Shown here: piece after piece, positions 11,038 through 36,065 of the stretch | Position numbering within the stretch: position 1 is the first letter of the stretch | How the letters are laid out: each line of letters starts with the position of its first letter | Source of the DNA: Anaeromyxobacter sp. | GTDB taxonomy: Bacteria; Myxococcota; Myxococcia; Myxococcales; Anaeromyxobacteraceae | Direction: 5' to 3' | Assembly (NCBI GenBank): GCA_025360965.1 | Contig: JANYBC010000097.1 | Location: 1-36,096, forward strand | Length of the DNA: 36,096 nt | Notes under the pieces: model-generated | What the model saw: the letters and a program-made list of their open reading frames with translations, nothing else | Databases searched by the model: none | Told to the model about the DNA's origin: nothing | Made by a program: the position numbers and the translations under genes

Positions 11038-11051
11038 CGGCGCGCCGGCGG

Positions 11052-12179: not shown

Positions 12180-12241
12180 GAGGTGCGATTGTAGCGTGCG
12201 TGGGGTAGAAACGCCCTACATCAGGAGAGGCCTGACACCTC

Positions 12242-13057
12242 ATGGATCTCGCGCTTCAGCGCTGGCTGCAGCAGAACCCCTTCCTCGTCCCGATGGCCCA
12301 CTTCGAGGGGCAAGTGCGGGGCGCGGCCGAGGCCCTGACCCCTCCGGCGCTGGTCCTGGGCCCGTGGTCGGAGCACCGGGCCGAGCACGAGAACGGGGTG
12401 CCGCTCCTGCTCGGCCAGAGCCACGGGACGGCGCTGCAGGCCGGGGCAGCCGAGCTGCTCGGGCCGGCCTGCGACAAGGCCCTGCTCGGCAAGCTGCCCC
12501 CGGCGCTGGCCGAGGGGATGAGGGAGGTCAAGGCGGCGCTGGCCACGCCGGCCTCGAGGAGCACCGCCATCCACTGGCTGCTCACGGGGGCCTCGCCCGG
12601 CAACGCCCCGGCGCAGCCGGCCCTGCTGCAGCTGCTCGCCTGGCGCACCTTCTCGCGCCTGCTCTCGCCGCACCTCGAGCCGTTCTCGGCCTGGCGAAAC
12701 GGGGTCCGCTGGGGGCGCTCCAGCTGCCCCCTCTGCGGGGCCCTGCCCATGATGGCCCACTCCCGCGGGGGCGAGCGGACGCTGGTCTGCGGCTGCTGCA
12801 ACTCGCGCTGGCGCGATGCGCCGCCGGGCTGCCCGCACTGCGGCAACCGGGACGCGTCCCGCCTGGCCCGGCTGGAGATGAAGGGGGCGGCCGGGCTGCG
12901 GCTCGACGTCTGCGACGCCTGCAAGGGCTACCTGAAGGTCTACGCAGGGGAGGGCGAGGAGGCGGTCTTCCTGGCCGACTGGCCGACGCTGGCGCTCGAC
13001 GGGCTGGCGGTGGAGCGAGGCTACGGACGGCGCGGCGCCTCGCTCTGGGAGCTCTGA
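12242..13057 (+). CDS. fdhE: Formate dehydrogenase accessory protein FdhE
   Basis: A 271-residue cytoplasmic protein needed for formation of active formate dehydrogenase. The C-terminal half has the two rubredoxin-like metal sites of FdhE: CPLC at 162-165 and CGCC at 183-186, then CPHC at 197-200 and CDAC at 224-227. The surrounding sequences WGRSSCPLCGALPMM, LDVCDACKGYLKVY and FLADWPTLALDGLAVERGY fit the family. The N-terminal half is helical. The ATG at 12242 has AGGAGAGG farther upstream than ideal (about 12 bases). No formate dehydrogenase subunit is in the window, so its partner is elsewhere or beyond it. The gene starts 62 bases from the divergent SGNH gene. Confidence 0.93.
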   Translation: MDLALQRWLQQNPFLVPMAHFEGQVRGAAEALTPPALVLGPWSEHRAEHENGVPLLLGQSHGTALQAGAAELLGPACDKALLGKLPPALAEGMREVKAALATPASRSTAIHWLLTGASPGNAPAQPALLQLLAWRTFSRLLSPHLEPFSAWRNGVRWGRSSCPLCGALPMMAHSRGGERTLVCGCCNSRWRDAPPGCPHCGNRDASRLARLEMKGAAGLRLDVCDACKGYLKVYAGEGEEAVFLADWPTLALDGLAVERGYGRRGASLWEL

Positions 13058-13135
13058 GCGGGCCGCCAGCCAGCGCATTTCTTCCTACCTCGGGCTCCGC
13101 CCCGGCATACAAGGATGGATCGAAAGGAACCCGCC

Positions 13136-16100: not shown

Positions 16101-17140
16101 TCAACTTCGACACGGCGGCGGGCCAGTCGGCCGGCGACGACGTCGAGGGCCAGGCGACCGCCTGGTCGCCCACGGCCGGCCCGGCCAGCGCCCCGGGCTC
16201 CGGGTGGCGGCGGGTGGAGCGCTCGCCGGTCGATCACCGCTGGCAGGCCCCGGTGAGCACCGACACCGGCGAGTGGTGGCTGGTCTCGCCGGCCCTGGAG
16301 ATCGGCTACGGCCCGGCCTCCATCACCTTCAGTCATCGCTTCGACTACTGGTATGGCTACGACACCGCCGGCGCCGCCCTCTACGCCAGCGGCGGGGTGG
16401 TCGAGGCGAGCCAGGCCGGTGGCGCCTGGACCGACCTGGGGAGCTCCATCACCCCGGGCTACACCCAGACGCTGGCCGCCTGGGGAGGTCCGCTCGACGG
16501 CCGCCGCGCCTTCGCCGGCCGGAGCGTCGGCTGGCCGGACCGGGCCACCGCCACCATCAACCTCGCCACCCGGTACGCGGGCAAGTCGATCCGCGTCCGC
16601 TTCCGCTCGGCGCAGTACGGGATCGCCATCACCCCCGGCTGGGAGGTGGACGACATCGTGGTGAGCGGCGTCACCAACCTGCCCTTCGGCGCGCTGGTGG
16701 GGCGCGGCGCGGCCTGCCTGCAGGCGCCCAGCGCGGTCGCCACGGCCCCGGCCACCGGGACCGTGGGCGTGCCGGTGGCGCTCGACGGGACCGGGAGCAG
16801 CGACCCGTCCAGCCGGGCGCTCAGCTACGCCTGGGCCCAGGTGAGCGGCCCGGAGGTCTCGCTGGATGGCGCCTCCACCGCCAGCCCCAGCTTCTCGGTG
16901 GCCAGCCTGGCCGGACCCCAGCCGATCGCCTTCTCCCTGCGGGTCTCCAACGGCCTGCTCTGGAGCGCCTCGGCGTATGTGACTGTCACCGTGAGCCCGG
17001 CGCCGCCACCCCCCAGGCACGGGGGCGGCTGCTCCTCCACCGGCCAAGGGCTCGACGGCGCCTTCGCGCCACTACTCGGCCTGGCGCTCGGGCTCTGGCT
17101 GCGCGGCGTGGGGCGGGCTAGGAGGCGCGCAGCAGCTTGA
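13136..17140 (+). CDS. Secreted M36 (fungalysin-like) metalloprotease with PA domain and MYXO-CTERM-like tail
   Basis: A 1334-residue secreted protease. The N-terminus has a lipobox-like signal (LLALAAC, Cys15). Residues about 50-330 look like the FTP/PepSY propeptide of M36 enzymes (ARFTQRVQGVPVFGTSLSVL). The catalytic domain contains HEWGH at 647-651, with the third zinc ligand Glu674 in MGEGWSDFFALL. A protease-associated (PA) domain is inserted just before it, about 530-620 (GCAALVNGAALVGRIAVVDRGG, AGAVAVLVVNN). After the catalytic part come beta-sandwich regions, including a PKD/Ig-like block near 1200-1290. The tail is GGGCSSTG, a hydrophobic helix, then an Arg-rich end, like a MYXO-CTERM sorting signal with Cys1299. 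The ATG at 13136 (AAGGA, 7-base spacer) is preferred over an in-frame ATG at 13115. Its stop overlaps the convergent reductase gene by 23 bases. Confidence 0.9.
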   Translation: MTRWSVPAALLALAACTSRPAPASFASPPPATSGGLGLAPIDARTAGSARALRFVDPSLAGDRLRPGAALQVDERMGLPTFVWTRPDPDPVRRAAVRRLGPEAAARGHLAELAPLYALTAVSAARAEFGALHDTGRGGIIARFTQRVQGVPVFGTSLSVLMDRELQPLAVTGSLSPDAEAAEGVALDFRLDEADAIDRALTDLHGTSLPRQALGASRTDQSGATLHEVLAPPAGVVFSRPPRTRPVLFQLPERLEPATYVELVASTSDRSDSVAYAYVFSAVDGRLLLRRDLSSHAAFTYRAWAGAGAPYLPPPGPQGRGATPYPTAAPSGLVLPFTAPALVSLQNSPFSRNDPWLPDGAGDTTGNNVAAYADLGPPDGFNTDTDLSAGVTSTEIFDRSYDTALAPAASPDQVKAAVTQLFFVTNFLHDWYYDSGFDEAAGNAQENNLGRGGAGGDRLHAEAQDFSGTDNANMMTPADGASPRMQMYVWTAKPKGVVEIMSPPALAGTLTSTLGANFGPSSFTVPETPLALVDDGVSAPGSLGCAALVNGAALVGRIAVVDRGGCTFVIKVGNAQAAGAVAVLVVNNVAGQVRMAGADPAITIPALSISQAEGEAIKARLGAGVTARLSGSKGQDRDGSIDNTVVAHEWGHYVSNRLIGNGSGLANNQGRSMGEGWSDFFALLMMVQAGDTAVAGNGTWGGSYALAGYATFELTPDPYYYGIRRVPYSTDPDRNGLTFKHIADGVALPVGPPTAFGADGVANSEVHNAGEVWGSMLWECYAALLRDTGRLSFDQAQRRMKDYLIASLKLTPQNPTFLEARDAVLAAALAGDPADHRLFAQAFARRGAGTRAVAPSRDSTDHAGVVESFSASDDVALVSATLDDSTGATCGTTGVLAAGGSGLLTVTLRNVGLDPLAATSATVGSVAAGLGFPSGRSLSFAPMDPGATATATLPVTLDASVTGIQVITLSLMVTDPAMPTPLAVDLVRRLNFDTAAGQSAGDDVEGQATAWSPTAGPASAPGSGWRRVERSPVDHRWQAPVSTDTGEWWLVSPALEIGYGPASITFSHRFDYWYGYDTAGAALYASGGVVEASQAGGAWTDLGSSITPGYTQTLAAWGGPLDGRRAFAGRSVGWPDRATATINLATRYAGKSIRVRFRSAQYGIAITPGWEVDDIVVSGVTNLPFGALVGRGAACLQAPSAVATAPATGTVGVPVALDGTGSSDPSSRALSYAWAQVSGPEVSLDGASTASPSFSVASLAGPQPIAFSLRVSNGLLWSASAYVTVTVSPAPPPPRHGGGCSSTGQGLDGAFAPLLGLALGLWLRGVGRARRRAAA

Positions 17141-21130: not shown

Positions 21131-21572
21131 GCCCCGGCAGGCCGAGCGCCTCGGCCACCAGCTCGGCGGCCGCCGCCAGCTCGAGGGCCGGGCGGGCGTC
21201 GCCGGGCGCCAGGTCGAAGGCGCCGCGCCCCCGGAGCCGCTGCGGCGTGCCGACGTAGCGCGGCACCAGGTGCAGGTGGAAGTGGTGCAGCACGTCGCCG
21301 ATGGCGAAGGCATAGACATGCTCGGCGCCGAGCGCCGCCCGCTGCGCCCGCATCACCTCCTGTGCGACCTGGCCGAGCGCGGCGGTCGACTCGGCGTCGA
21401 GGTCGTAGAGGGCCCGGCAGTGGCGCTCGGCGGTGAGCACCAGCCAGCCGGGGATTGGGCACGGTCCGTCGAGCGCGTGGAGCGCCAGGCCACCACCTCG
21501 CCAGACCAACCCGCCCGGAACGGTTCGGCGCCCGGCCAGCAGGTCACAGGCTGCACAAGTCGGCTCGCTCAT
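21111..21572 (-). CDS. HIT-family hydrolase
   Basis: A 153-residue histidine-triad protein, a nucleotide phosphoramidase or diadenosine polyphosphate hydrolase type enzyme. The signature is HHFHLHLVPR, with the triad His97, His99 and His101 (the last two are the pair nearest the catalytic step). CAAC at 6-9 looks like half of the zinc site found in many HIT proteins. PIPGWLVLTAERH fits the family's 'pGHlLvvPkrH' strand. The ATG at 21572 has GGAGG with an 8-base spacer, which rules out the longer open frame. It is divergent from the small Cys-protein gene and convergent with the SDR gene. Confidence 0.88.
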   Translation of the reverse strand: MSEPTCAACDLLAGRRTVPGGLVWRGGGLALHALDGPCPIPGWLVLTAERHCRALYDLDAESTAALGQVAQEVMRAQRAALGAEHVYAFAIGDVLHHFHLHLVPRYVGTPQRLRGRGAFDLAPGDARPALELAAAAELVAEALGLPGLTPRRG

Positions 21573-21599
21573 GGTCCAATCCTCCATCGTCGGCGGTGG

Positions 21600-21662
21600 T
21601 CCTTCCGTATATACCTCAGTGACTCCAGGGAGATACGCCATATCCCCCATCGGAGGTATTTC
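21600..21662. promoter_or_regulatory. AT-richer divergent promoter region with dyad
   Basis: This stretch is clearly less GC-rich than its surroundings. It holds TATATA at 21608-21613, which reads as a good -10 on either strand and lies 36 bases upstream of the HIT start on the minus strand. An inverted repeat atacctc (21611-21617)/gaggtat (21653-21659) overlaps it. No -35 with a good match is seen. It probably holds the HIT promoter and perhaps that of the small Cys protein. Confidence 0.4.
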
Positions 21663-21738
21663 CTTGGTGGGCCGGTCGGCGGCACCTTGGCGCGTCCGTT
21701 TGGCATGTCCGGTCCCAATCTGCAGTCCGGGAGCTTCC

Positions 21739-21963
21739 GTGACCCTCCATCCCAATCCTTCGCCGCTCTCGCAGTTGATCCGTTCCGAGACGGTCGTGTC
21801 GGGCCACCGCAGCCTCTACTGCTTCCACTACGACGGCTGCCTCGACGTGGCCGTGAAGCACGACTGGGACAGCTGGTCCTGCGAGCGCTGCTCGCTCTTC
21901 CAGGCGGAGGCCGGCCCGCGCGACCACGCCACCTCCTTCGCCAACGATCGCCGCGGCCCCTGA
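21739..21963 (+). CDS. Small four-cysteine protein of unknown function
   Basis: A 74-residue protein if GTG at 21739 is the start; GGGAG 5 bases upstream supports it. The core SPLSQLIRSETVVSGHRSLY is followed by YCFHYDGCLD and WDSWSCERCSLF. The four cysteines in C-x6-C and C-x2-C spacing, with nearby His and Asp, suggest a small metal site. The codon pattern is strongly coding, with GC-rich third positions. It lacks a signal peptide, so it is likely cytoplasmic. I do not recognise a named family. The M2 peptidase start follows 23 bases after its stop on the same strand, so they may share a transcript. Confidence 0.65.
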   Translation: MTLHPNPSPLSQLIRSETVVSGHRSLYCFHYDGCLDVAVKHDWDSWSCERCSLFQAEAGPRDHATSFANDRRGP

Positions 21964-21986
21964 AGCCGCCCCTCCCGGGAGTCCAC

Positions 21987-23816
21987 ATGTTGAGCGCGCT
22001 CATCCTGGCCGCGGCCGTCGCCGCGGTCCCCGCCACCGCTGCGCCCGCCGCACTGCCCGCTACTGCCCGGCCGGCCGACGCCCTGTTCATCGACGGCGCC
22101 AACGCCGCCCTTCGCCGCGCCTGGGTCCGCTCCTCCAGCGCCGACTGGGCCAGGCAGACCAACATCACCGACGACACGGAGTTCCTCGCCGCCGAGCTCA
22201 ACACCGACGCGCTGGCGACGCTCGATGGCCTGTCACGGCAGTCGCTTCGCTTCGACGCCGCCAGGGCCTCCTCGCCGGCGGTGGGGCGCCAGCTCCTGCT
22301 GCTGCGCAACCCCTCGGTGCTGGCGGGCGGACTGCCGGTCATCCCGCCGGCCGAGCCGGCCAGGCAGGCCGAGCTGGCTGCGCTCTCGGCGAAGCTCGAC
22401 GGCCTCTACGGCAAGGGGAAGTGGTGCGGGGCGGACGGCAAGCAGCCCTGCCGCGACCTCGGCCAGCTCGAGGAGGTGATGGCCTCGAGCCGCAGCTGGG
22501 ACGCGCTGCTCGACGCCTGGTCGGGCTGGCACACCATCTCGCGGGAGATGCGGCCGCTCTACGCCCGGCTGGTCGAGCTGGCCAACGAGGGGGCGCGTGG
22601 CCTGGGCTGGAAGGACACCGGCGAACTCTGGCGCGCCGGCTACGACATGCCGGCCGCTGACTTCGAGGCCGACACCGACCGGCTCTGGGCCGAGGTGAAG
22701 CCCTTCTACGACCAGCTCCACTGCTACGTCCGCGCTGAGCTGCAGAAGCGGCATGGCAAGGAGCGGGTCCCGGACCGGAAGCCCATCCCGGCCCACCTGC
22801 TCGGCAACATGTGGGCGCAGAGCTGGGACAACCTCTACGCCGACCTCGAGCCCTACCACGGGCAGCCGTCGCAGGACGTCAGCGGCGCCCTGGTGGCGCA
22901 GAAGTGGGACGTCACCCGGATGGTGAAGCTGGGGGAGGGATTCTTCTCCTCGCTCGGCTTCGCGCCGCTGCCGGAGAGCTTCTGGCAGCGCTCCCAGCTC
23001 GTGAAGCCGCGCGACCGTGAGGTGGTCTGCCACGCCAGCGCCTGGGACGTCACCTTCGCCGCCGACCTGCGCATCAAGATGTGCATCAAGCCGACCGAGG
23101 AGGATCTCGTCACCATCCATCACGAGCTCGGCCACAACTACTACCAGCGGGCCTACGCCGGCCTGCCGGTGCTCTTCCAGAACGGCGCCAACGACGGCTT
23201 CCACGAGGCCATCGGCGACGCCATCGCCCTCTCCATCACCCCCGGCTACCTGAAGCAGGTCGGGCTGCTGACCGAGCTGCCGAAAGACGACAAGGGGCTC
23301 ATCAACGTGCAGCTCAAGCGGGCGCTCGGCAAAGTCGCCTTCCTGCCGTTCGGCAAGCTCATCGATCAGTGGAGGTGGGACGTCTTCAGCGGGAAGACGC
23401 CGCCGGAGCAGTACAACCAGGCCTGGTGGGCGCTGCGGGCGAAGTACCAGGGGGTGGCGCCGCCGGTGGCGCGCTCCGAGGCCGACTTCGATCCGGGCGC
23501 CAAGTACCACATCCCGGCCAACGTTCCGTACACGCGCTACTTCCTGGCCGCCATCTACCAGTTCCAGTTCCACAAGTCCCTCTGCGAGGCGGCCGGCTGG
23601 AAGGGGCCGCTCCACGAGTGCTCCATCTACGGCTCCAAGGCGGCCGGCACCAAGCTGAACGACATGCTGGCGCTCGGCATGTCGAAGCCCTGGCCGGAGG
23701 CCTACGCCACGCTCACCGGCAGCACCCGGGCCGACGCCAAGGCGCTGCTCGAGTACTTCGCGCCGCTGCGCGGCTGGCTCCAGAAGCAGAACGCCGGCCG
23801 CGCCTGCGGGTGGTGA
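21987..23816 (+). CDS. Exported M2 (ACE-like) dipeptidyl carboxypeptidase
   Basis: A 609-residue zinc peptidase of family M2, the family of angiotensin-converting enzyme. It has a signal peptide (MLSALILAAAVAAVPATA) and so works in the periplasm or outside. The zinc site is VTIHHELGHNYYQ with His379 and His383 and general base Glu380; the third ligand is Glu407 in NDGFHEAIGDAIALS, 24 residues further, exactly the M2 spacing. Upstream blocks such as ADWARQTNITDDTE, LLGNMWAQSWDNLY and the end region KYHIPANVPYTRYFLAAIYQFQFHKSLC are family-typical. It probably removes C-terminal dipeptides from peptides taken up as nutrients. The ATG at 21987 has GGGAG with a 5-base spacer. Confidence 0.94.
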   Translation: MLSALILAAAVAAVPATAAPAALPATARPADALFIDGANAALRRAWVRSSSADWARQTNITDDTEFLAAELNTDALATLDGLSRQSLRFDAARASSPAVGRQLLLLRNPSVLAGGLPVIPPAEPARQAELAALSAKLDGLYGKGKWCGADGKQPCRDLGQLEEVMASSRSWDALLDAWSGWHTISREMRPLYARLVELANEGARGLGWKDTGELWRAGYDMPAADFEADTDRLWAEVKPFYDQLHCYVRAELQKRHGKERVPDRKPIPAHLLGNMWAQSWDNLYADLEPYHGQPSQDVSGALVAQKWDVTRMVKLGEGFFSSLGFAPLPESFWQRSQLVKPRDREVVCHASAWDVTFAADLRIKMCIKPTEEDLVTIHHELGHNYYQRAYAGLPVLFQNGANDGFHEAIGDAIALSITPGYLKQVGLLTELPKDDKGLINVQLKRALGKVAFLPFGKLIDQWRWDVFSGKTPPEQYNQAWWALRAKYQGVAPPVARSEADFDPGAKYHIPANVPYTRYFLAAIYQFQFHKSLCEAAGWKGPLHECSIYGSKAAGTKLNDMLALGMSKPWPEAYATLTGSTRADAKALLEYFAPLRGWLQKQNAGRACGW

Positions 23817-25057: not shown

Positions 25058-27547
25058 ATGAAGGTCCTCAACCTCGAAGACCAACCGCGGGACTCGGCGC
25101 TGATCGAGCGCGAGCTCCAGAAGCACTTCGGCTCTGTGGAGATGGTCCGCGTCGACACGGCCGAGGGCTTCACCGCGGCCCTGGCGGAAACGGGGTGGGA
25201 TCTCATCGTCGCCGACCACAGGCTCCCACGCTTCACGTCACTGGGGGCCCTGGCCGCCCTGGAGGCCTCGGGGAAGGACATCCCGCTGGTCGTGGTCTCG
25301 GGGACCGTGGGGCTGCAGTTCGCGGTCGAGGCCATGCGGGCCGGCGCCCGCGACTTCCTCGTCAAGTCCGACCTGGTCCGGCTCAGCGCGGTGGTGGAGC
25401 GGGAGGTCCGGGACGCGGCGGCGCGCAGGCTGGTCAGGACCAGACAGGCGCTGACCGATGAGATCCTGGAGATTCTCAAGGGCCACGGCGAGCTGGGTCC
25501 CCAGCTTCGCAGCGTGCTGGAGCTGCTGCGCCGCCATGCCGGCGCCGACGCCGCGGCCATCCGGCTGCGCGTCAACGACGACTTCCCGTACGCCGAGCTG
25601 GTCGGGTTCGGAGCCGAGCACGCCGCCGCGGAGAGTTCCCTCTGTGCGCGCGAGGGGCCCGACTGCGATGGCGGGACGAAGGGCGGCGCCGGCGAGCTGG
25701 CCTGCCTCTGCGGTGCGGTGCTCCTCCAGCATGGCGCGCTGGCCGGCGCGCTGACGGCGCGGGGCGCCTACGTGACCGGTTCGCTCCGCGCCGGCGTGGA
25801 CCAGGCACTGCAGGACGGCCGGCTGCCGCACCCGCGTGGCCTCTGCGCCGACGAGGGCTACCAGTCCCTGGCCCTGGTCCCGCTCCACGGAGGTCCGCGG
25901 GTGATCGGGCTGCTCCAGCTCAACGCCCGCGCCCCCGACCGCTTCGGGCCCGACCTGGTCCAGTACCTCGAGAAGGTCTCACCCAGCCTGGGGTTCGCGC
26001 TCGAGCGCCGCCGGGCGGAGGAGTCGCTGCGGGCGAGCGAGGAGCGCTACCGGCTGCTGGTCGAGGCCTCACCCTACGGCGTGGCCCTGACTGGGCGGGA
26101 CGGGAACATCCTCAAGGCCAACCGGCGGCTCGCGGCCCTGCTGGACGTGGGAGATGCGGCCTCCCTGGAGGGGCTCCTGGTGACCAGCCTGGTGGCCCAG
26201 AAGGATCGCCGGCGGGCCGAGGCCGAGCTGGCCAGCGCACTGGCGCGCGGGAGCCCCTTCGAGTCCCAGCTCAGGGTCTGCCATGGCGCCGTCGAGTTCG
26301 ACGCCGAGGTGACCGGCGCCAGGAGCAGCCGTGACCCGGGCACCGCGGGGCTGGTGCTCATGATCCGCGACGTGACCGAGCGTCGCCGGCTGCAGGCGCA
26401 GTTGGCCCAGTCGGAGCGGATGGCGAGCGTGGGCATGCTGGCGGCCGGGGTGGCGCACGAGATCAACAACCCGCTCACCTACGTCCTGGCCAATCTGGAG
26501 GGGTTGAACGCCGACCTCCCGGCGGTGGAGGCTTCGCTGCCGGCGGCCCGCGAGCCGCTAGAGCTGGTGCAGCGGGCACGGGACGCCTTCGACGGGGCGA
26601 AGCGGATCAAGGCGATCGTCCGCGATCTCAAGCTCTTCTCCCGCACCGCCGACGAGCGGGTCGAGCCGGTCTCGATCGACCGGGTCATCGAAGGCGCGCT
26701 CAACATGACCCAGGGCGAGGTGAAGTACCGGGCCAAGGTGGTCGCCGATTACGGTGAAGTGCCGCCGGTGCTGGCCAACGAGGGGAGGCTGGCCCAGGTA
26801 TTCCTTAACCTGATCGTCAACGCGGCCCAGGCCATCCCCGACGGGGACGTGGAGCACAACCAGATCCACGTCAGGACCTGGACCGAAGCGGGCGCGGTGC
26901 TGGCCGAGGTGCGCGATACCGGGGTCGGCATCCCGGTGGAGCACCAGGCCCACGTCTTCGAGCCCTTCTTCACCACCAAGCCGGCCGGGATCGGGACCGG
27001 CCTGGGGCTGGCCATCAGCCGTGGGATCGTGGAGGAGGCGGGTGGGCGGATCACCCTGGAGAGCAGCCCCGGCCAGGGGGCCAGGTTCGTGGTGCGGTTG
27101 CCGGCGATGGCAGAGCTGGGCCGGGCCCCGGTCGTCCCGGCCGAGGCTCCGCCCAGGCCCGGCTCCCGGCGCGGGAGGATCCTGGTCGTCGACGACGAGC
27201 GGCTGATCCGTGCCGCGCTGATCAGGATCCTGGCGGCCGAGCACGACGTGGTCGAGGCGGAGAGCGGGGAAGCGGCGGAGCGGCTGCTGGCGGCGGACGG
27301 CGGCTTCGACGTGATCTTGAGCGATCTCATCATGCCGGAGGTCACCGGCATGGACCTCCACGACGGCCTGGCGCTGACCCGTCCCGAGCTGGCCGCGCGG
27401 ATGGTCTTCATGACCGGCGGCGCCTTCACGCAGCGCGCCATGACATTCCTGGAGGCGGTGCCGAACCTGCGCGTCGAGAAGCCGCTCGACGCCATCAACC
27501 TGCGGGAGCTGGTTCGCCTCCTGGTGGCGGGGCGAACGCCGGCCTGA
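25058..27547 (+). CDS. Hybrid sensor kinase REC-GAF-PAS-HisKA-HATPase-REC
   Basis: An 829-residue soluble signalling kinase. Domains in order: receiver 1-125 (LNLEDQPRD, phospho-acceptor Asp53 in LIVADHRLP); GAF about 135-318 with a Cys-rich insert (SLCAREGPDCDG, ACLCGAVLL, then LCADEGYQSLALVPL and VIGLLQLN); PAS about 325-445; HisKA with His467 in GVAHEINNPLTYVLANLE; HATPase with N box FLNLIVNAAQAI, G1 VRDTGVGIP, F box FEPFFTTK and G2 GTGLGLAIS; and a C-terminal receiver with Asp756 in VILSDLIMPEVTGMD. All catalytic residues are present. It lacks membrane helices, so it senses a cytoplasmic signal or takes its input from the first receiver. The ATG at 25058 has GAGGA about 10 bases upstream. 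It probably works with the receiver gene just upstream. Confidence 0.93.
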   Translation: MKVLNLEDQPRDSALIERELQKHFGSVEMVRVDTAEGFTAALAETGWDLIVADHRLPRFTSLGALAALEASGKDIPLVVVSGTVGLQFAVEAMRAGARDFLVKSDLVRLSAVVEREVRDAAARRLVRTRQALTDEILEILKGHGELGPQLRSVLELLRRHAGADAAAIRLRVNDDFPYAELVGFGAEHAAAESSLCAREGPDCDGGTKGGAGELACLCGAVLLQHGALAGALTARGAYVTGSLRAGVDQALQDGRLPHPRGLCADEGYQSLALVPLHGGPRVIGLLQLNARAPDRFGPDLVQYLEKVSPSLGFALERRRAEESLRASEERYRLLVEASPYGVALTGRDGNILKANRRLAALLDVGDAASLEGLLVTSLVAQKDRRRAEAELASALARGSPFESQLRVCHGAVEFDAEVTGARSSRDPGTAGLVLMIRDVTERRRLQAQLAQSERMASVGMLAAGVAHEINNPLTYVLANLEGLNADLPAVEASLPAAREPLELVQRARDAFDGAKRIKAIVRDLKLFSRTADERVEPVSIDRVIEGALNMTQGEVKYRAKVVADYGEVPPVLANEGRLAQVFLNLIVNAAQAIPDGDVEHNQIHVRTWTEAGAVLAEVRDTGVGIPVEHQAHVFEPFFTTKPAGIGTGLGLAISRGIVEEAGGRITLESSPGQGARFVVRLPAMAELGRAPVVPAEAPPRPGSRRGRILVVDDERLIRAALIRILAAEHDVVEAESGEAAERLLAADGGFDVILSDLIMPEVTGMDLHDGLALTRPELAARMVFMTGGAFTQRAMTFLEAVPNLRVEKPLDAINLRELVRLLVAGRTPA

Positions 27548-27598: not shown

Positions 27599-28519
27599 TC
27601 AGCGGGAGAAGACCACGGTGAGCGGGCCGGCCACGGCCTCGCCGCCGCGCAGGTCGCGCGCCACCACCCAGACCAGCGCCTCGGTCGCGCCCGCCAGCTC
27701 CTTGGCCTCGAGCGCCGTGCTGGTGGAGGGTGCGGCCACGGTGGCCTGGCCGCTCTGGTACTTGAAGCGGCCGGCGGTCGTGAAGAAGGAGATTACGATG
27801 GTCTCCTCCAGAGAGAGCTGGCCGGCACGGTAGGGCTGGAAGGAGCCGGCATCGATGGTGACGTCGATGGCGACCGACGCGGCCGAGCAGGGGGCCGGCT
27901 GGGCGCTGCAGTCCGAGGTGGCCGCGGCGGAGGAGATGACCGGGTTGAGGTTGGCGGGCTGCGCCGGCGGGGCGCCGAACCAGACCGGGATCCGCTGCAC
28001 CGCCTCGCGCCGCAGGCCGTCGAGGGTGGCGACGTAGCGGACCAGCATGTCGACGGCGCCCCCGCCCCCCGGGCCCCCCGCGCCGCCGCCCGTGAAGCCG
28101 CCGAGGGCCGCCTGGCAGGCAGGCTTCATCACCTCGAGCAGCGGGTCGAGGGTGACGCGGCCGTCCGCGGCAGGCAGCAGCGTCGACTCGCAGGCCGGGA
28201 TGGCGCAGGCGTAGCCGCTGGTGGCGCCGATCGAATATGGGCAGAAGCTCCAGGCCACGTCGGCCGGCGCGGGCCTGCGGGCCGGTCCGCCCGCCGCGGC
28301 GGGTGGGGCCACCGAGATCGCCTGCAGGACGGTCACGGTGTTGCTGCCGGCGGCCGGCGAGAGCCTGAGCTCGGGCGGATCGGCCACCATGGCCAGCACC
28401 CGCAGGTCCTCGACCACCGAGGCCGGGACGAAGGTGTCGGCGCAGCCGGCGGCCAGCAGGACGGCCAGCGGCGCGAGCGAGGCGAGCGAGGCGAGCGGGA
28501 GGCGAGGGTTCGAGCGCAT
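27599..28519 (-). CDS. Lipoprotein, last gene of the RND-Ton operon
   Basis: A 306-residue exported lipoprotein with lipobox LLAAGC (Cys near residue 26). The mature N-terminus (VVEDLRVLAMVADPPELRLSPAAG) carries a motif I associate with myxobacterial lipoproteins, whose function is unknown. The body holds paired cysteines (FCPY, YACAIPAC, KPACQ, SDCSAQPAPCS), a Gly-rich linker (GGFTGGGAGGPGGGG), and a beta-rich C-terminal part (RAGQLSLEETIVISFFTTAG). The ATG at 28519 is 2 bases after the stop of the receptor gene, with GGAG 8 bases upstream inside that gene, so it is co-translated with it. A GTG at 28528 is an alternative. It may be a surface partner of the receptor, as lipoproteins often are in Ton systems; that is inference. 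Confidence 0.82.
   Translation of the reverse strand: MRSNPRLPLASLASLAPLAVLLAAGCADTFVPASVVEDLRVLAMVADPPELRLSPAAGSNTVTVLQAISVAPPAAAGGPARRPAPADVAWSFCPYSIGATSGYACAIPACESTLLPAADGRVTLDPLLEVMKPACQAALGGFTGGGAGGPGGGGAVDMLVRYVATLDGLRREAVQRIPVWFGAPPAQPANLNPVISSAAATSDCSAQPAPCSAASVAIDVTIDAGSFQPYRAGQLSLEETIVISFFTTAGRFKYQSGQATVAAPSTSTALEAKELAGATEALVWVVARDLRGGEAVAGPLTVVFSR
28473..28499. repeat. Three tandem copies of a 9-base unit
   Basis: gcgagcgag occurs at 28473-28481 and 28482-28490, and with one change (gcgagcggg) at 28491-28499. It encodes part of the signal peptide of the lipoprotein (LASLASLA). Gain or loss of a copy would keep the frame and only change signal-peptide length. Confidence 0.7.
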
Positions 28520-28521
28520 GG

Positions 28522-31122
28522 TCACCACTCCGCGTTGAGGCCGAGGATGGGCAGGATGGGGAGGCCGGTGGCGGGCGTCTTCTGGGCGTAGTCGTAGCTG
28601 TAGGAGTAGCCCTCGACGTTGCCGCGGTTGGCGACGTTCTGGACGTCGAGGAAGAGCACCATCTTCCAGGTCGGCCAGGTCCAGGTCCGGTCGAGCCGCA
28701 GGTCGAGCTGGTTGAAGGACGGGAGACGGGTCGAGTTGACGGGTCCATAGCGCGGCACGTAGGTGCCGGTGCCGGCGTCGAGCACCGAGCCGGTGACCGG
28801 CGTCTCGGGGTCGCCGGAGACGTAGCGGAAGCGGCCACCGGCCGACCAGGCCCGGGCGAAGTTCCAGGTGCCGACCACGGTCAGGTTGTGCGGCTGGTCG
28901 AAGGAGAAGGGGCGCTCGGGCTGGCCGGGGGCGTCGGTCCGGTAGGCCCGCTGGTAGGTGTAGGCGATCCAGCCGAAGAAGGTCTCGCCGGCGCGGCCCC
29001 GGAGGATCAGCTCCAGCCCCTTGACCCGGCCGGTGCCGGCGTTGCTGTAGGGCGGCAGGGCCGGGTCATAGGTGGCGGCCTGGTTGCGCACCACCTGGTC
29101 GGAGAGCTGCTTGTGGAAGATGGTGGCCTCGCCCTGGAAGGTGTCGGAGACCTGCTGCTCGACGCCGACCGAGGTGTGGAGGGCCGCCTTGGGCTTGAGG
29201 TGGGGGTTGCCGACGTCGGGCGCGCTCTCGTCCGGGCCGGGGGGCTGGTGGAAGAGGCCGATGCCGGCCTTGAGCGTGGTGCCGGGGCGCACCTCCCAGC
29301 GGGCGCCGACGCGCGGGTCGAAGGAGGCGCGATCGATCTGGCTGTAGTAGTCGGCGCGCACCCCGGGCAGGACCAGCAGCGACGGGAGCGGCTCCCAGCG
29401 CAGCTCGAGGAAGGCGGCCGGTTGGTGCTGGCCGGTCCTGGTCTTGAGCGAGAGGGTGGGCGAGGTCGAGACCGGGGTCTGCGGCTGGCCCTCCTTGGGC
29501 GGCTGCGGCGTGTTGAGCGCGATCTGGACCGCCGCGGTGGTGGCGTCGAGGCCGGCCCGAAGCTGCAGCCCCCTGGCGAGGTCGAGGGTCCAGGCGCTGC
29601 GGACGCCGAGCTGCACCACGTCGAGGTCGAAGAAGAACTGCGGCCCGAACTGGGTGCGGAACTGGTTGTAGGAGAGCTGGAGGCTCGACTCCTGGCGCAG
29701 CCCCGGCGCCACCGCGCCGGAGAGCGAGGCCTGCAGGGCGTGGAACATGGTGCGGGCCGAGATGGTGCCGGTGATCTTCGGGTCGTCGGCGGGGCGCTTG
29801 AAGATCACCACCACCTTGTCCATGGAGCCGTAATAGAGGAGCCGCAGCGCCTGGCCGCCCAGCTTCCGGGTCGCCAGGAACTGGTAGTCGTAGTAGCGCG
29901 GCGCCGAGTCGAAGGAGAGGTTGGCGTCGCTCGGCAGCACCAGCGGCAGGATGGTGTCGATCCAGGAGCGGCGGAAGGAGGCCCCGCCGGCCCAGCCGCC
30001 GCCGAGCGGCCCCTCCACGGCGCCGCCGGCGTCGTAGAAGTTCACGAAGGCCTCGCCCCGCACCAGGTCCGAGGCCGGGTCGCGCAGCTTCACGTCGACG
30101 ATGCCGCCGGTGGCGCGGCCGTAGTCGGGCGCGAAGTTTCCGGGGATGAACTCGACCTGCTCGAGGAAGCGGGGGTTGATGGTGCTGCGCAGCCCGCCGA
30201 AGTGATAGAGGAGCGGGATCTGCTGCCCCTCCAGGAAGACCCGCGAGTCGCCGGGCCCGGAGCCGCGCAGGATCAGCTGGCCCGAGCCGAAGGCGGTGCG
30301 GGCCACGCCCGGCAGGTTGAGCACCGCCTTGATGGTGTCGCCCTGGGTGCCGGCCACCTTGGCCACCTCGCTGGCCGGGATCACCTGTCGGGTGATCTCG
30401 CGGCGGATCGGAGCGGCGCTCACCACCGTCTCGTTCCCGTCGCCGGACCGCTCCAGGTAGAAGGTCTCGTCGCGCTCCTCGCCCGGCTTCGCCTCGACCC
30501 GCAGCTCGAGCCGGTCGTGACCCGCCGGGACGGCCACCAGCGTGAAGCTGGCCTCGGGAACGGTCAAGGCGAAGCGGCCGTCGGCGCCGCTGGTCGCCTT
30601 CTGCGGCTCGGCGCCGGTGCGGGCCGCCACCGCCACGTTGGCCAGCGGCTTTCGGGTGCCGCGCTCCAGCAGGCGGCCGGTGAAGCGGACCGGGGCTGGC
30701 GCAGGGGGAGGGGCCTCGGCCGCCGGGGGCGCGGTCAGGCGCATCCGGAAGCTGATGGTGACCGGCACCGGCTCGCCGGTGGTAAGCCGCCCCGGCTCGA
30801 AGAGGAACTTCTTCGCGGCGCCGGCCGCGGCGGCGTCGAACGGCTCGCCAACCCCCTGCTCGACGCGCACCGCCTCGACCAGCCCGGCCGGGTCGACGTC
30901 GATGGCCAGCACCACCACCACCTCGGGGGTGGGGAAGACCGTGCCGGGCGGGAGCTCGGCCGGCACCAGCAGCTTCACGGCCGGTGGCGTCGCCAGCGTC
31001 GGCTCGGCCGGCGCCGTCGCCGCTGGCGGCGGCGGGTTGGCCGGGTCGGCCCCCTGCGCCGGGACGGCAGCCGCGAGGGTGAGGGAGAGCAGGGCGAGGC
31101 CGAGGAGGCGGGTGGTGGTCAT
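28522..31122 (-). CDS. TonB-dependent receptor with N-terminal TonB-C-like domain
   Basis: An 866-residue outer-membrane receptor. A signal peptide (LLGLALLSLTLAAAVPAQG) leads to residues 48-130, which read like the C-terminal domain of TonB (LAIDVDPAGLVEAVRVEQGVG, FDAAAAGAAKKFLFEPG, VPVTISFRMRL). A carboxypeptidase-regulatory-like beta domain follows at 146-225 (FTGRLLERGTRKPLANVAV). Then come a TonB-box-like ETVVSAAP at 231-238, the plug (GDTIKAVLNLPGV, LILRGSGPGDSRVFLEGQ, FIPGNFAPDYGRATGGIVDV) and the barrel to the end. The last residues are LGLNAEW, an aromatic barrel end. The ATG at 31122 is 4 bases after the tonB stop. Substrate is unknown. The receptor needs the ExbB-ExbD-TonB complex encoded just upstream for energy. 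Confidence 0.9.
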   Translation of the reverse strand: MTTTRLLGLALLSLTLAAAVPAQGADPANPPPPAATAPAEPTLATPPAVKLLVPAELPPGTVFPTPEVVVVLAIDVDPAGLVEAVRVEQGVGEPFDAAAAGAAKKFLFEPGRLTTGEPVPVTISFRMRLTAPPAAEAPPPAPAPVRFTGRLLERGTRKPLANVAVAARTGAEPQKATSGADGRFALTVPEASFTLVAVPAGHDRLELRVEAKPGEERDETFYLERSGDGNETVVSAAPIRREITRQVIPASEVAKVAGTQGDTIKAVLNLPGVARTAFGSGQLILRGSGPGDSRVFLEGQQIPLLYHFGGLRSTINPRFLEQVEFIPGNFAPDYGRATGGIVDVKLRDPASDLVRGEAFVNFYDAGGAVEGPLGGGWAGGASFRRSWIDTILPLVLPSDANLSFDSAPRYYDYQFLATRKLGGQALRLLYYGSMDKVVVIFKRPADDPKITGTISARTMFHALQASLSGAVAPGLRQESSLQLSYNQFRTQFGPQFFFDLDVVQLGVRSAWTLDLARGLQLRAGLDATTAAVQIALNTPQPPKEGQPQTPVSTSPTLSLKTRTGQHQPAAFLELRWEPLPSLLVLPGVRADYYSQIDRASFDPRVGARWEVRPGTTLKAGIGLFHQPPGPDESAPDVGNPHLKPKAALHTSVGVEQQVSDTFQGEATIFHKQLSDQVVRNQAATYDPALPPYSNAGTGRVKGLELILRGRAGETFFGWIAYTYQRAYRTDAPGQPERPFSFDQPHNLTVVGTWNFARAWSAGGRFRYVSGDPETPVTGSVLDAGTGTYVPRYGPVNSTRLPSFNQLDLRLDRTWTWPTWKMVLFLDVQNVANRGNVEGYSYSYDYAQKTPATGLPILPILGLNAEW

Positions 31123-31126
31123 GGGT

Positions 31127-31882
31127 TCACTCGTCGAGCCGGAACTTGAAGGTCCAGGCATAGCGCACCGCCACCGGGCGGCCCGCGCGGGTGCCCGGGG
31201 TGAAGGAGAGCATGCGGGCCAGCTGCTGCACGGCCGCGTCGAAGCCGGCGCCGCCGCCCTCGACGACGCGGACCTCACGCACCGCGCCGGTCTCGTCGAC
31301 CAGCAGCTCGACCCGGACGTTGGCCTCCAGCCCATCGCGCCTCGCCGCCTCCGGGTAGAGGGCGCGCAGGTCGAGCTTCGAGGGCTGGCGCAGCAGGCGC
31401 GGCGCCTGCTCCAGGTCGGTGACGTCGGATGGCCGCCCCGCGAAGGCCGAGTTGTCGCCGGCCGGGGCCGAGGCCGGCGCGTTCGGGTTGCCGCGCGCCG
31501 CGGTGGCGCCGCTGGTGGTCGGCATGGCGAGGCCGCCGCCCGCACTGACCAGCGCGTCCATGGAGACCGCGAAGCGGCGGGGCTGCGGGGGCGGTCTGCC
31601 GGGTGGCGGCGGCGCGGTCGGTGTGACCGGGGACTCGGGGCGGACGGCCTTCGGGGCCGGCGCGGTGGTCCGGTTGGAGACCAGCGGCGGTGGCCTGACA
31701 GGCTCGGGCTGCCTCGGCTCGGGCCGGGCCGCGGGGGGGCGCGTCGCCAGGCGCACCGCGATGGGAGGGCGCTTCACCTGCAGCCGGGGCGGATGGCGGG
31801 TGGCGACCCAGGCGGCGGCCGCGGCGTGGAGCAGGCCGGCCGCGACCAGGGAGGGCCAGAAGGTGGAGCGGACCAGCGTCAC
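31127..31882 (-). CDS. tonB: TonB energy-transducing protein
   Basis: A 251-residue protein that couples the ExbB/ExbD motor to the outer-membrane receptor. It has one N-terminal membrane helix (FWPSLVAAGLLHAAAAAWVA), a Pro-rich periplasm-spanning stretch about 30-102, a low-complexity part (GGGLAMPTTSGATAARGNPN) and a TonB C-terminal domain at 176-248 (YPEAARRDGLEANVRVELLV, VREVRVVEGGGAGFD, LSFTPGTRAGRPVAVRYAWTFKFRL). GTG at 31882 is the start; it shares four bases (GTGA) with the exbD stop, so translation is coupled. It is the third gene of the Ton trio and directly precedes the receptor, so it is probably dedicated to it. Confidence 0.92.
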   Translation of the reverse strand: MTLVRSTFWPSLVAAGLLHAAAAAWVATRHPPRLQVKRPPIAVRLATRPPAARPEPRQPEPVRPPPLVSNRTTAPAPKAVRPESPVTPTAPPPPGRPPPQPRRFAVSMDALVSAGGGLAMPTTSGATAARGNPNAPASAPAGDNSAFAGRPSDVTDLEQAPRLLRQPSKLDLRALYPEAARRDGLEANVRVELLVDETGAVREVRVVEGGGAGFDAAVQQLARMLSFTPGTRAGRPVAVRYAWTFKFRLDE

Positions 31883-32325
31883 GGGGTCGTGGTGGTGGGC
31901 GGCTGCGTGTCGAGCGCGATGTCGCTCACCCCGGCGACGCGGAGCTGGTCGACCGCCTCAGCGAACCTGCCGTACGGGGCGTCGACGTCGGCCGAGACGA
32001 AGCCGGCCAGCCTGGCCTCGACGCCGCTGGAGGCCGCCCTGGCGCGCGCCGCCTCGACCTCGCGGGCGATGTCCTTGAGCTGGGCCGCGGCGCCGTTGAC
32101 GAAGAGGTCGCCGTTCCTGGCCACGGCGATGTTGATGATGGAGGGGGGCGAGCTCTCGGCCGAGGCGGCCTTGGGCAGGTTGACCGGCATCGACCGGTTG
32201 ACCACCTGCGAGGCGGTGACGATGAAGACCACCAGCAGGGTCAGGCAGACGTCGACGATGGGCGTGATGTTGACGCCGCCGATCAGCTCGTCGTCGCCGG
32301 CGCCGCCCCAGGAGGACCCGCTCAC
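31879..32325 (-). CDS. exbD: ExbD-type motor protein
   Basis: A 148-residue inner-membrane protein. A single helix near the N-terminus carries the proton-path aspartate, Asp25 in GGVNITPIVDVCLTLLVVFI, followed by a periplasmic domain (PSIINIAVARNGDLFVNG, EARLAGFVSADVDAPYGRFA, VAGVSDIALDTQ). With ExbB it converts proton flow into motion of TonB. GTG at 32325 is the start, 3 bases after the exbB stop, with GGAGG 8 bases upstream. TolR is the closest alternative, but the adjacent TonB and receptor genes favour ExbD. Confidence 0.92.
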   Translation of the reverse strand: MSGSSWGGAGDDELIGGVNITPIVDVCLTLLVVFIVTASQVVNRSMPVNLPKAASAESSPPSIINIAVARNGDLFVNGAAAQLKDIAREVEAARARAASSGVEARLAGFVSADVDAPYGRFAEAVDQLRVAGVSDIALDTQPPTTTTP

Positions 32326-32328
32326 CGG

Positions 32329-32991
32329 TCAGCCCTCCGCCCCGCTGTCGGTGTCGAGCCGCGGCAGGTTGGCGACCAGCTCCCGGCTCAGCGCCTCGGC
32401 CTGCTTGAGCCGCCCGTTCACGTGGGCCTTGAGGCCGTTGTAGGCGACCACCGCCGGGACGGCGACGGTGATGCCGAAGCCGGTCACCACCAGCGCCTCG
32501 CCGATGGAGGCCATCACCTGGGAATTGGAGGAGGCCTGCACGGTCCCGACCTTGCCGAGGACGTAGAAGGCGCCGACGATGCCGATGACGGTGCCGAGCA
32601 GCCCGATGAGCGGGGCGATGTTGCCGATGGTGGCCAGCACCGAGAGCCGGGCCTCGTAGCGGCCGCGTTCCTCGGAGAGCTGGCCGAGCATGGCCTGCTC
32701 CACCGAGGCCGGCTGGCGCTCGCCGCGGGAGGCCAGCTCCAGGCCGGCCCGGACCACGTTGCGGCTGAGCGAGTCACCCTCGACGGCGCGGAGCGCGCCC
32801 TTCAGGTCGGCGGCGGCCAGGGCGGCCGAGAAGGCGCGCTTGAGGGCCGGGAACCGCTCGGCGGTGCGGACGTAGAAGACCATCCGGTCGATGAAGACGC
32901 CCAGGCCGATGATCGAGACGCCGATCAGGACGAAGTTGACCCAGTCGGCGCCGAAGCTGGCCGTCAGGTCGAGGAGCTTCTGGGTCAGCAT
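32329..32991 (-). CDS. exbB: ExbB-type proton channel protein
   Basis: A 220-residue MotA/TolQ/ExbB family protein with three membrane helices: one near residues 15-35 (WVNFVLIGVSIIGLGVFIDRMVF), then, after a cytoplasmic loop, IAPLIGLLGTVIGIVGAFYVLG and ALVVTGFGITVAVPAVVAYNG. These last two hold the conserved Gly/Thr residues of the channel pore. The ATG at 32991 is preferred over GTG 33021 because AAGGAG stands 8 bases before it. It overlaps the 3' end of the RND gene by 7 bases, which ties the Ton genes to the pump gene in one transcript. Confidence 0.92.
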   Translation of the reverse strand: MLTQKLLDLTASFGADWVNFVLIGVSIIGLGVFIDRMVFYVRTAERFPALKRAFSAALAAADLKGALRAVEGDSLSRNVVRAGLELASRGERQPASVEQAMLGQLSEERGRYEARLSVLATIGNIAPLIGLLGTVIGIVGAFYVLGKVGTVQASSNSQVMASIGEALVVTGFGITVAVPAVVAYNGLKAHVNGRLKQAEALSRELVANLPRLDTDSGAEG

Positions 32992-35900
32992 GAGGGTAAC
33001 TCCTTGGCGGAAGGGCGCCACCGGTCGATGATCACATAGAAGACCGGCGTCACGTAGAGCGTGAGGAACTGGGAAAAGATCAGGCCGCCCACCACAGCCA
33101 GGCCGAGCGGCCGCCGCCCCTCGGCCCCGGCGCCGATGCCGATGGCGAGCGGCAGCGTTCCGAAGAGCGCCGCCATGGTGGTCATCATGATGGGGCGGAA
33201 GCGGGTGATGGAGGCCTCGTGGATGGCCTCCCGGGCGCTCTTCCCGGCCCGCTGCGCCTCGAGCGCGAAGTCGACCATCATGATGCCGTTCTTCTTGACG
33301 AGGCCGACCAGCATGACGATGCCGACGAAGGCGTAGACCGAGAGCTCGGAGCGGAAGACCCAGAGGGTCACCAGCGCGCCGAAGCCGGCGAAGGGGAGGG
33401 CGGTCAGGATGGTGACCGGATGGGCGAAGCTCTCGTAGAGCACGCCGAGCACCATGTAGATGATCAGGATGGAGACGGCCAGCAGCAGCCCGAGCCCGGT
33501 CAGCGAGTCGCGGAAGGCCTGCGCCGCTCCCTGGAAGCGGGTCACCACCGTCTGCGGCAGGGTCGCGGCGGCCGTCTTCTCGATGGCGGCCACGGCGTCG
33601 CCGATGGCCCGGCCCGGCTTGACGTTGAAGGAGACGTTGACGGCCGGGAGCTGCCCGGCGTGGCTCACGGTGAGCGGGCCGACCGACCGCTCCACCCGGG
33701 CCAGTGCGTCGAGCGGGACCAGCTTGCCACCCGGGCCGCGCAGGTGGAGCCAGGAGAGGGCCTGCGGATCGGTGCGCAGCTCGGGCAGCAGCTCCAGGAT
33801 CACCTGGTACTGGTCCTCCGGCGCCATGATGGTGGAGACCTGGCGCGAGCCATACGCGGAGTAGAGGGCCTCCTCGACCGCCTGGGCCGGGACCCCCAGC
33901 AGCGCGGCCCGGTCGCGATCGATCTCCACCTTGAGGCGCGGGCTGGCGAGGCGCAGGTCGGAGGTGACGTCCTGCAGCTCGGGGAGGGCCCGCAGGGCCT
34001 TCTCGAAGGCCGGCGCGGCCCGGTAGAGCCCCTGGAGGTCGGCGTCCTGCAGCGTCACCGTGTAGAGGGCACGGCCGCCGCCGCCGAGGTTGATGGGGGG
34101 CGGCACGGTCGGGATCACCTGCAGCCCGGGCACGCCGCCCATGAGCGACCGCAGGTCGCCGATGACCGCGTCGACGTGGCGCCGCTGGTCGCGGTCCTTG
34201 AGCTTGAGGAACATGGTCCCCTGGGTGACGCCGGCCGGGCCGCGCGCCCCGACCGAGGACATGAACTGCTCCACCTCCGGCTGGGAGGCCACCAGCGCGG
34301 CGGCGGCGCGCTGGGCCTTGGCCATGGCGTCAAAGCTGGTCCCTTCCGGACCCTCGGTGGAGACCCGGACTCGCCCGGTGTCGTCGGTGGGGAGGAACCC
34401 CTTGGGCACCGCCATCCAGAGCGGCACCATCGCCAGCAGCACGGCGGCCGAGAAGGCCAGGACCCGGCGCGGGTGGTCGAGCGCCCAGGAGAGCCCGCGG
34501 TCGTAGAAGCGGATGACCGCCTCGAAGCCGCGCTCGGTCCACTGGTAGAAGGCGCCGTGCGCCTCGGCGTGGGGGGCGTGGCGCAGGAAGCGGGCGCAGA
34601 GCATCGGGGTCAGGGTCAGCGAGACCACGCCCGAGACCAGGATGGCCGAGCCGATGGTGACGGCGAACTCGTGGAAGAGCCGGCCCACCAGGCCGCCCAT
34701 GAAGAGGATGGGCAGGAAGACCGCCGCCAGCGAGATGGTCATGGAGACGATCGTGAAGGCCACCTCCCGGGAGCCGTCCAGGGCCGCCTGCAGCGGCGGC
34801 TTGCCCATCTCCATGTGCCGGACCACGTTCTCCAGCATGACGATGGCGTCGTCGACCACGAAGCCGACCGCCAGGGTCAGCGCCATGAGCGAGAGGTTGT
34901 CGAGGCTGTAGCCGGACCACCACATGAGCGCGAAGGTGCCGAGCAGCGAGACCGGCAGCGCCAGCGAGGGGATGACGGTGGCCGGGACGTTGCGGAGGAA
35001 GAGGAAGATGACCAGCACCACCAGGCCGAGCGTCAGCCAGAGCGTGAACTTCACGTCGGTCACCGACTCGCGGATGGAGACGGCGCGGTCGTAGATGACG
35101 AAGAGGCGGGCCGCGGCCGGAAGCTGCGCCTCGACGATGGGGAGCATCTGGTGGACGGCCTGCGCCACCGCCACGGTGTTGGTGCCGGGCTGGCGCATCA
35201 CCGCCAGCACGATGGCCCGCCGCTCCTTGCCGTCGCGGTAGAACCAGGCGGCGGTGTTCTCGTTCTCGACGCCGTCGCGGACGCGGCCGAGATCGGCGAC
35301 GCGCACCGGGGCGCCGTTGCGGTAGGCCACCACCGCGCTGCCGAACTCGCTGGCCCGCTCCAGCCCGCCGCTGGCCTCGACCGCGTAGGCCCGCGAGCCG
35401 CCCTGCACCACGCCGGTCGGCAGGTTGGAGTTCTGGCCGCGGATGGCCTGGGCCAGTTCATCGAGCCCGATGCCACGCGAGGAGAGGGCGCGGGGGTCGA
35501 CCTGGATGCGCACCGCGTACTTCTGCGACCCGAAGACCTGCACCTGGGCCACCCCCGGGATGGTGGCGAGCCGCTGGCCGATGACGTCCTGGCCGAGACG
35601 GTTGAGCGTGGAGAGTGGGAGGGTCGGGGAGGTGAGGGCCAGGTAGATGATCGGCTCGTCGGCCGGGTTGACCTTGCGGTAGGTCGGGGCGGCCGGGAGG
35701 TTGGGCGGGAGCTGTCCGCCGGCCGCCGAGATGGCCGACTGCACGTCGAGGGCGGCGCCGTCGAGGTTCCGCGAGAGGTCGAACTCCAGGGTGATGGAGG
35801 TCTGGCCCTGGCCGGAGGTGGAGTTCATGGCGGTGAGGCCGGCGATGGAGGAGAACTGGCGCTCCAGCGGCGTGGCCACCGTGGTGGCCATGGTCTCGGG

Positions 35901-36065
35901 GCTGGCGCCGGGGAGCGAGGCCGAGACCTGGATGGTCGGGTAGTCGACGGCCGGCAGGTCGGAGACCGGCAGCAGGTTGTAGGCGACCACGCCGAAGATG
36001 ATGGCGGCGATGGTGAGCAGCGCGGTCGCCACCGGCCGCCGGATGAAGAGCTCCGAGATGTTCAC
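32985..36065 (-). CDS. RND efflux pump, inner-membrane subunit (HAE1/MdtBC-like)
   Basis: A 1026-residue proton-driven exporter, the expected length. It opens NISELFIRRPVATALLTIAA. The periplasmic porter part includes GASPETMATTVATPLERQFS and GVAQVQVFGSQKYAVRIQVD. The membrane proton relay Asp pair is in LAVGFVVDDAIVMLENVVRHME, and the second half includes GFLPTDDTGRVRV, then near the end GLVKKNGIMMVDFALEAQR and TMAALFGTLPLAIGIG. The LPxxDLPAVDYPTIQV start and VVDDAIV motif place it with MdtB/MdtC-type multidrug or small-molecule pumps rather than heavy-metal pumps. GTG at 36065 is the start; it overlaps the upstream stop (GTGA). It heads a run of seven genes that continues with the Ton system. 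No outer-membrane TolC-type channel is in the window. Confidence 0.94.
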   Translation of the reverse strand: MNISELFIRRPVATALLTIAAIIFGVVAYNLLPVSDLPAVDYPTIQVSASLPGASPETMATTVATPLERQFSSIAGLTAMNSTSGQGQTSITLEFDLSRNLDGAALDVQSAISAAGGQLPPNLPAAPTYRKVNPADEPIIYLALTSPTLPLSTLNRLGQDVIGQRLATIPGVAQVQVFGSQKYAVRIQVDPRALSSRGIGLDELAQAIRGQNSNLPTGVVQGGSRAYAVEASGGLERASEFGSAVVAYRNGAPVRVADLGRVRDGVENENTAAWFYRDGKERRAIVLAVMRQPGTNTVAVAQAVHQMLPIVEAQLPAAARLFVIYDRAVSIRESVTDVKFTLWLTLGLVVLVIFLFLRNVPATVIPSLALPVSLLGTFALMWWSGYSLDNLSLMALTLAVGFVVDDAIVMLENVVRHMEMGKPPLQAALDGSREVAFTIVSMTISLAAVFLPILFMGGLVGRLFHEFAVTIGSAILVSGVVSLTLTPMLCARFLRHAPHAEAHGAFYQWTERGFEAVIRFYDRGLSWALDHPRRVLAFSAAVLLAMVPLWMAVPKGFLPTDDTGRVRVSTEGPEGTSFDAMAKAQRAAAALVASQPEVEQFMSSVGARGPAGVTQGTMFLKLKDRDQRRHVDAVIGDLRSLMGGVPGLQVIPTVPPPINLGGGGRALYTVTLQDADLQGLYRAAPAFEKALRALPELQDVTSDLRLASPRLKVEIDRDRAALLGVPAQAVEEALYSAYGSRQVSTIMAPEDQYQVILELLPELRTDPQALSWLHLRGPGGKLVPLDALARVERSVGPLTVSHAGQLPAVNVSFNVKPGRAIGDAVAAIEKTAAATLPQTVVTRFQGAAQAFRDSLTGLGLLLAVSILIIYMVLGVLYESFAHPVTILTALPFAGFGALVTLWVFRSELSVYAFVGIVMLVGLVKKNGIMMVDFALEAQRAGKSAREAIHEASITRFRPIMMTTMAALFGTLPLAIGIGAGAEGRRPLGLAVVGGLIFSQFLTLYVTPVFYVIIDRWRPSAKELPSC

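Follow-up and report, generated by a model that had tools for sequence, protein, structure and literature searches.

An additional periplasmic alpha/beta domain precedes the TonB box in the STN-bearing transducers FpvA, FecA and FoxA. The TonB box of apo-FpvA pairs as a strand with this N-terminal signalling domain until strand exchange dislodges it (PMC2729926). FoxA and TonB bind in two steps, of which the first involves a stretch immediately preceding the box (PMC6699858). SusC/RagA-type receptors with an NTE (PF13715) carry a regulatory-like domain directly ahead of the TonB box and, where another N-terminal domain is present, it is an STN domain (PMC7782687). Deletion of the NTE in a Bacteroidota SusC protein abolished growth in one tested system; the harm to growth may not involve transport itself, and the Bacteroides NTE has been suggested to confer TonB specificity (PMC7782687). 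A domain resembling the C terminus of TonB or TolA is also found outside TonB proper in VreA (PA0674) of Pseudomonas aeruginosa, a receptor-derived protein (PMC2729926).

TonB_C-bearing receptors already exist in a named family, the myxochelin receptor MxcH (NCBIfam NF038079), in which an N-terminal TonB_C domain is followed by plug and barrel. In the openly accessible literature we found no paper that treats a TonB_C domain within a TonB-dependent receptor, or its role. From the same phylum as the receptor described here, Oar of Myxococcus xanthus is a TonB-dependent transporter with exbB1 and exbD1 adjacent (PMC11658791); it is a secretion transporter (for PopC), unlike the Anaeromyxobacter uptake receptor.

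Architecture of the Anaeromyxobacter receptor

The window analysed is a stretch of 36,096 nucleotides from Anaeromyxobacter sp., to which all positions refer. The ORF at 28522–31122 (–) encodes an 866-residue TonB-dependent outer-membrane receptor, in which translation and Pfam place, in order, a TonB_C domain, a carboxypeptidase-regulatory-like domain, a TonB box, a plug and a beta-barrel. A predicted Sec-type signal peptide was recognised by eye at residues 1–24 (31051–31122, –) as a hydrophobic run followed by AQG-A. The TonB C-terminal-like domain spans residues 48–131 (30730–30981, –) according to Pfam, NCBIfam, profiles and a structural model, and the carboxypeptidase-regulatory-like domain (NTE, Ig/transthyretin-like) residues 146–224 (30451–30687, –) according to Pfam, profile and model. 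The TonB box ETVVSAA, residues 231–237 (30412–30432, –), was identified by reading and aligns with the YETVVRG-type boxes of relatives, in which a short gap separates it from the regulatory-like domain. The plug follows at residues 244–340 (30103–30393, –), and the barrel occupies about residues 363–866 (28525–30036, –; Pfam match 482–830). Both exceed their Pfam cut-offs (Plug 28.7 bits against 23.9, barrel 111.3 bits against 27), and together with the box ahead of the plug they identify the protein as a TBDT. The order of a TonB-C-like domain, a regulatory-like beta domain and a TonB box had been read from the translation in a first-pass annotation, and our analysis agrees with it.

The regulatory-like domain ahead of the TonB box is as in SusC-type receptors. 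In the receptor itself the CarboxypepD_reg match (148–223) falls below its Pfam cut-off, and all 41 aligned relatives match at E 0.01 or better. SusC/RagA-type receptors, however, have no TonB_C domain. The receptor is also distinct from MxcH: it scores 39.1 bits on NF038079 against a cut-off of 925, over the N-terminal part only, whereas four Myxococcota receptors reach 1026–1300 bits with alignments that start at model position 1 or 2 and span nearly all of it, and Pfam gives them TonB_C and Plug with no regulatory domain. MxcH thus differs from the Anaeromyxobacter receptor in lacking the carboxypeptidase-regulatory domain. VreA contains STN but lacks a barrel, and its TonB-like domain is at the C terminus, whereas here the domain is N-terminal in a protein with a barrel and no STN. 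The variant seen here combines TonB_C, a regulatory domain and a plug, and is accompanied by a conserved lipoprotein.

By eye, no further hydrophobic segment was found in the sequence between the signal peptide and the TonB_C domain. The receptor lacks the inner-membrane anchor of a TonB energy transducer, whereas the TonB of the operon has a hydrophobic N-terminus. With a signal peptide and no membrane anchor, the TonB_C domain would sit in the periplasm, untethered to the inner membrane, and so it cannot itself be driven by ExbB/ExbD or act as an energy transducer.

Identity and conservation of the TonB C-terminal-like domain

Several searches converge on the identity of the N-terminal domain. 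Pfam TonB_C (PF03544) matches residues 69–126 (E 8.8e-7, 29.7 bits against a cut-off of 24.6), and the NCBIfam model TIGR01352 (tonB_Cterm) is also above its cut-off. An HMM trained solely on the relatives' true TonBs matches the domain at E 2e-10 and finds it in every receptor relative extracted, a count that is not unbiased as these were gathered by whole-receptor similarity. TonB_C is present in 41 of 41 aligned relatives at E 0.01 or better (Pfam). When a profile of these 41 N-terminal regions was compared with the sequences of solved structures, positions 4–87 matched the C-terminal domains of E. coli TonB (1xx3, 1u07, 2gsk and 2grx; E 2e-10 to 1.4e-9), and positions ~101 to 200 matched regulatory-like domains of receptors and carboxypeptidases. 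In Pfam neither the receptor nor its 41 relatives matched STN (PF07660), and the profile search of PDB sequences found no STN or secretin domain. The STN/secretin fold, which the first-pass annotation had named as the finding that would overturn its assignment, was accordingly rejected. Residues 48–131 are almost certainly a genuine homologue of the TonB C-terminal domain, as judged from these sequence comparisons; the limits first drawn at 48–130 were right to within a residue or two. The receptor's own match covers positions 17–74 of the 79 in the Pfam model and so does not include a complete domain with the N-terminal YP segment; most relatives outside its clade have the complete domain.

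Structure prediction, which had been suggested earlier as a check, agreed with this assignment for the domain and gave no usable position for the TonB box. AlphaFold2 with a shallow four-row alignment, built from the Anaeromyxobacter locus and one related locus, produced a beta-beta-alpha-beta arrangement for the TonB_C stretch, with pLDDT of about 66–74 from the first strand into the helix and lower at the last strand; the box region was modelled at pLDDT around or below 50. A single-sequence prediction of residues 24–362 was poor (pLDDT 47), and Foldseek matches to the four-row model came mostly from the regulatory-like domain.

The fold-core positions are retained in the receptor-borne copies, often with conservative substitutions (E. 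coli V176, G186, V188, F202, V206, Y215 and P217). The edge strand (E. coli 226–232) is also kept, with V226, I228, Y/F230 and Y/F232 strongly conserved in most copies. In contrast, residues that mark true TonBs in this phylum are mostly lost: a basic residue at 169 is found in 2 of 54 receptor-borne copies versus 18 of 18 true TonBs of the phylum, a basic residue at 168 in 14/54 versus 16/18, and E173 in 22/54 versus 18/18, differences that the Fisher p-values exaggerate, since the sequences are related to one another. The basic pair 168/169 is absent from TonB of E. coli and is therefore not a general requirement for box binding. In the clade of the Anaeromyxobacter receptor, the YP tyrosine (Tyr163) is replaced by leucine or valine, and valine stands at Gly174. 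Given the loss of the TonB-typical residues and of this tyrosine, the receptor's domain may have stopped binding the TonB box.

Genomic neighbourhood and spread in the Myxococcota

A complete exbB-exbD-tonB set lies directly upstream of the receptor on the same strand, with spacings of at most 4 bases or short overlaps. It comprises TonB proper (31127–31882, –), with an N-terminal hydrophobic stretch, a proline-rich middle and TonB_C at residues 175–249, an ExbD/TolR family protein (31879–32325, –) and an ExbB/TolQ family protein (32329–33021, –). Among 55 non-duplicate receptor loci, 17 have a true tonB directly upstream and 14 of these have both exbB and exbD; the other three are truncated where the contig stops. 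As a true TonB coexists upstream, the receptor-borne domain is no replacement for it. The gene for an AcrB-type RND pump (32985–36065, –) shares 37 bases with the beginning of exbB. The nearest related locus showed no relative of AcrB ahead of its exbB, and the linkage may be local to the Anaeromyxobacter locus.

Downstream, and sharing seven bases with the 3' end of the receptor ORF, is the gene for a predicted lipoprotein of no known family (27599–28528, –; lipobox ...LLAAGC). Relatives of this lipoprotein occur within about 250 bp downstream in 43/55 receptor loci sampled across the order, and the 12 loci without one belong to more distant receptors. The family has the invariant lipobox cysteine, one more invariant cysteine and a C-terminal RDGRGG-like motif; it has no match in Pfam or NCBIfam and no convincing match among solved structures. 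A downstream lipoprotein is likewise a feature of SusC systems, but this one is similar to no known family. We regard it as a candidate surface partner of the TonB_C-bearing receptors, either a lid or a substrate-binding protein. A different predicted lipoprotein, weakly DUF4374/DUF5074-like, is encoded directly downstream of MxcH-type receptors (L109:389-1792 and L112:934-2220), and both classes of TonB_C receptor seem to have a lipoprotein partner.

Elsewhere in the window, a hybrid histidine kinase (25058–27547) is encoded on the strand opposite the receptor. An angiotensin-converting-enzyme-like M2 peptidase (21270–23816, +; Pfam E 2.9e-218) has about 270 additional N-terminal residues in its ORF, and a large fungalysin (M36) metallopeptidase with PA and PKD domains lies at 13115–17140 (+). 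An ORF of 1169 residues (8734–12243, –) has no Pfam match at E 1e-5 and overlaps long opposite-strand ORFs; it may not be a real gene.

The N-terminal profile matched in 55 of 58 sampled Myxococcota genomes, the partial matches including true TonBs; dozens of matches are full-length and lie inside ORFs of about 850–1200 residues. Receptor matches were found in 39 of 41 genomes searched within the order, many of them near full length and often several per genome. A count less biased than that of the similarity-gathered relatives was obtained by eye from eight genomes, where about 19 of 59 Plug matches (about a third; 18 by Pfam and one extra by the family profile) have a TonB_C upstream in the same frame, and about two thirds of plug receptors have none. 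This phylum-wide spread, and the presence of the domain in MxcH, go beyond what had been noted from the window. In a small sample of annotated plasmids searched for the architecture outside the Myxococcota, the receptor and TonB parts were matched separately and never together.

In a phylogeny of 73 TonB_C domains, the division into receptor-borne and true TonB copies required 2 label changes, compared with a mean of 17 after shuffling; with so short a domain and many forks left unresolved, a single origin is neither demonstrated nor excluded. The receptor's domain falls inside a receptor clade of 12 rows (support 98) and the TonB of its operon inside a TonB clade of 8 rows (support 97). A recent duplication of the adjoining tonB was considered as the source of the domain and rejected, since the two kinds of copy part on the tree; for the same reason the capture must be old. 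Its sequence relationships thus show that the domain was captured long ago in the Myxococcota and retained in many paralogues.

Possible roles of the receptor-borne domain

A TonB-related docking or gating role is probable for the receptor-borne domain. We propose that it may act as a periplasmic gate controlling the access of the operon TonB to the receptor's TonB box, a reading to which we give a probability of roughly 0.4. The domain would be a passive beta-augmentation module that governs how TonB reaches the box. At rest, its free edge strand would hold the receptor's own box, as STN does in apo-FpvA, and substrate binding together with the real TonB would displace the box by strand exchange. 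TonB would then be engaged by loaded receptors only, sparing a scarce protein that the many receptors could otherwise occupy; the regulatory-like domain in between would serve as a spacer or a TonB-specificity element. Self-sequestration in this specific form is a tentative and somewhat doubtful suggestion. Against the gate, no structure has the TonB box docked on the domain of its own receptor (the box region is modelled at low pLDDT), the TonB-typical residues are mostly lost, and about two thirds of plug receptors manage without the domain.

A gate or a recruiter are the natural readings given the precedents of apo-FpvA (PMC2729926) and FoxA (PMC6699858). As a recruiter or specificity element, the domain would bind the operon TonB, in a mixed TonB_C pair or via the regulatory-like domain, raise its local concentration and pick among several TonBs. 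This would fit the cognate exbB-exbD-tonB genes that adjoin 14–17 of the 55 loci and the presence of several proteins with TonB_C in each genome. Most of the 55 loci, however, have no adjoining tonB in the stretch seen, and it is disputed whether TonB C-terminal dimers matter physiologically. Even with the constitutive TonB docking segment upstream of the FoxA box (PMC6699858) and the TonB specificity suggested for the Bacteroides NTE (PMC7782687) in its favour, we consider recruitment rather unlikely.

An old TonB_C copy could also persist as a structural or biogenesis domain, a folded periplasmic spacer or assembly aid with no strand exchange. Retention of the fold core alongside loss of the TonB-typical residues is consistent with such a role, as is the harm to growth in Bacteroides on NTE deletion, which may not concern transport itself (PMC7782687). 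Such good preservation of an exposed edge strand across the order is not what one would expect of a pure spacer, and we judge this explanation improbable. Relay of receptor occupancy to an inner-membrane regulator, in the manner of STN, seems very unlikely. The domain does occupy the position of STN in FpvA and FecA, and in VreA a TonB/TolA-like domain is joined to STN in a signalling protein (PMC2729926), but Pfam and the PDB profile search gave no STN match and the hybrid histidine kinase of the window is on the other strand. Across eight genomes, none of about 19 such receptors has a match to the FecR anti-sigma factor on its contig closer than about 75 kb, in which they differ from the STN transducers with their FecR partners; this argues against classical signalling, and the signalling gate put forward in the first-pass annotation is disfavoured in its FecR/ECF sense. 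The other two roles put forward there, competition with TonB for the box and a mixed dimer with TonB, are both still plausible. Conservation of the edge strand, together with the existence of the real TonB as a separate protein, slightly favours the gate on TonB access, although the evidence is not decisive.

How dozens of receptors share few TonBs, and how TonB distinguishes receptors with substrate from those without, are long-standing questions. The Myxococcota combine many TonB-domain receptors with culturable, genetically tractable myxobacteria that hold some of them (the MxcH class), which makes the competition and gating models directly testable, and the conserved partner lipoprotein without a family name offers a second handle on the substrate that these receptors transport. 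It is conceivable, if unlikely on present evidence, that the Myxococcota receptors form a self-inhibited class of TBDT in which a built-in TonB mimic sequesters the receptor's own box until it is released by substrate together with the real TonB. If true, such self-inhibition would allow a single cell to operate many receptors with few TonBs.
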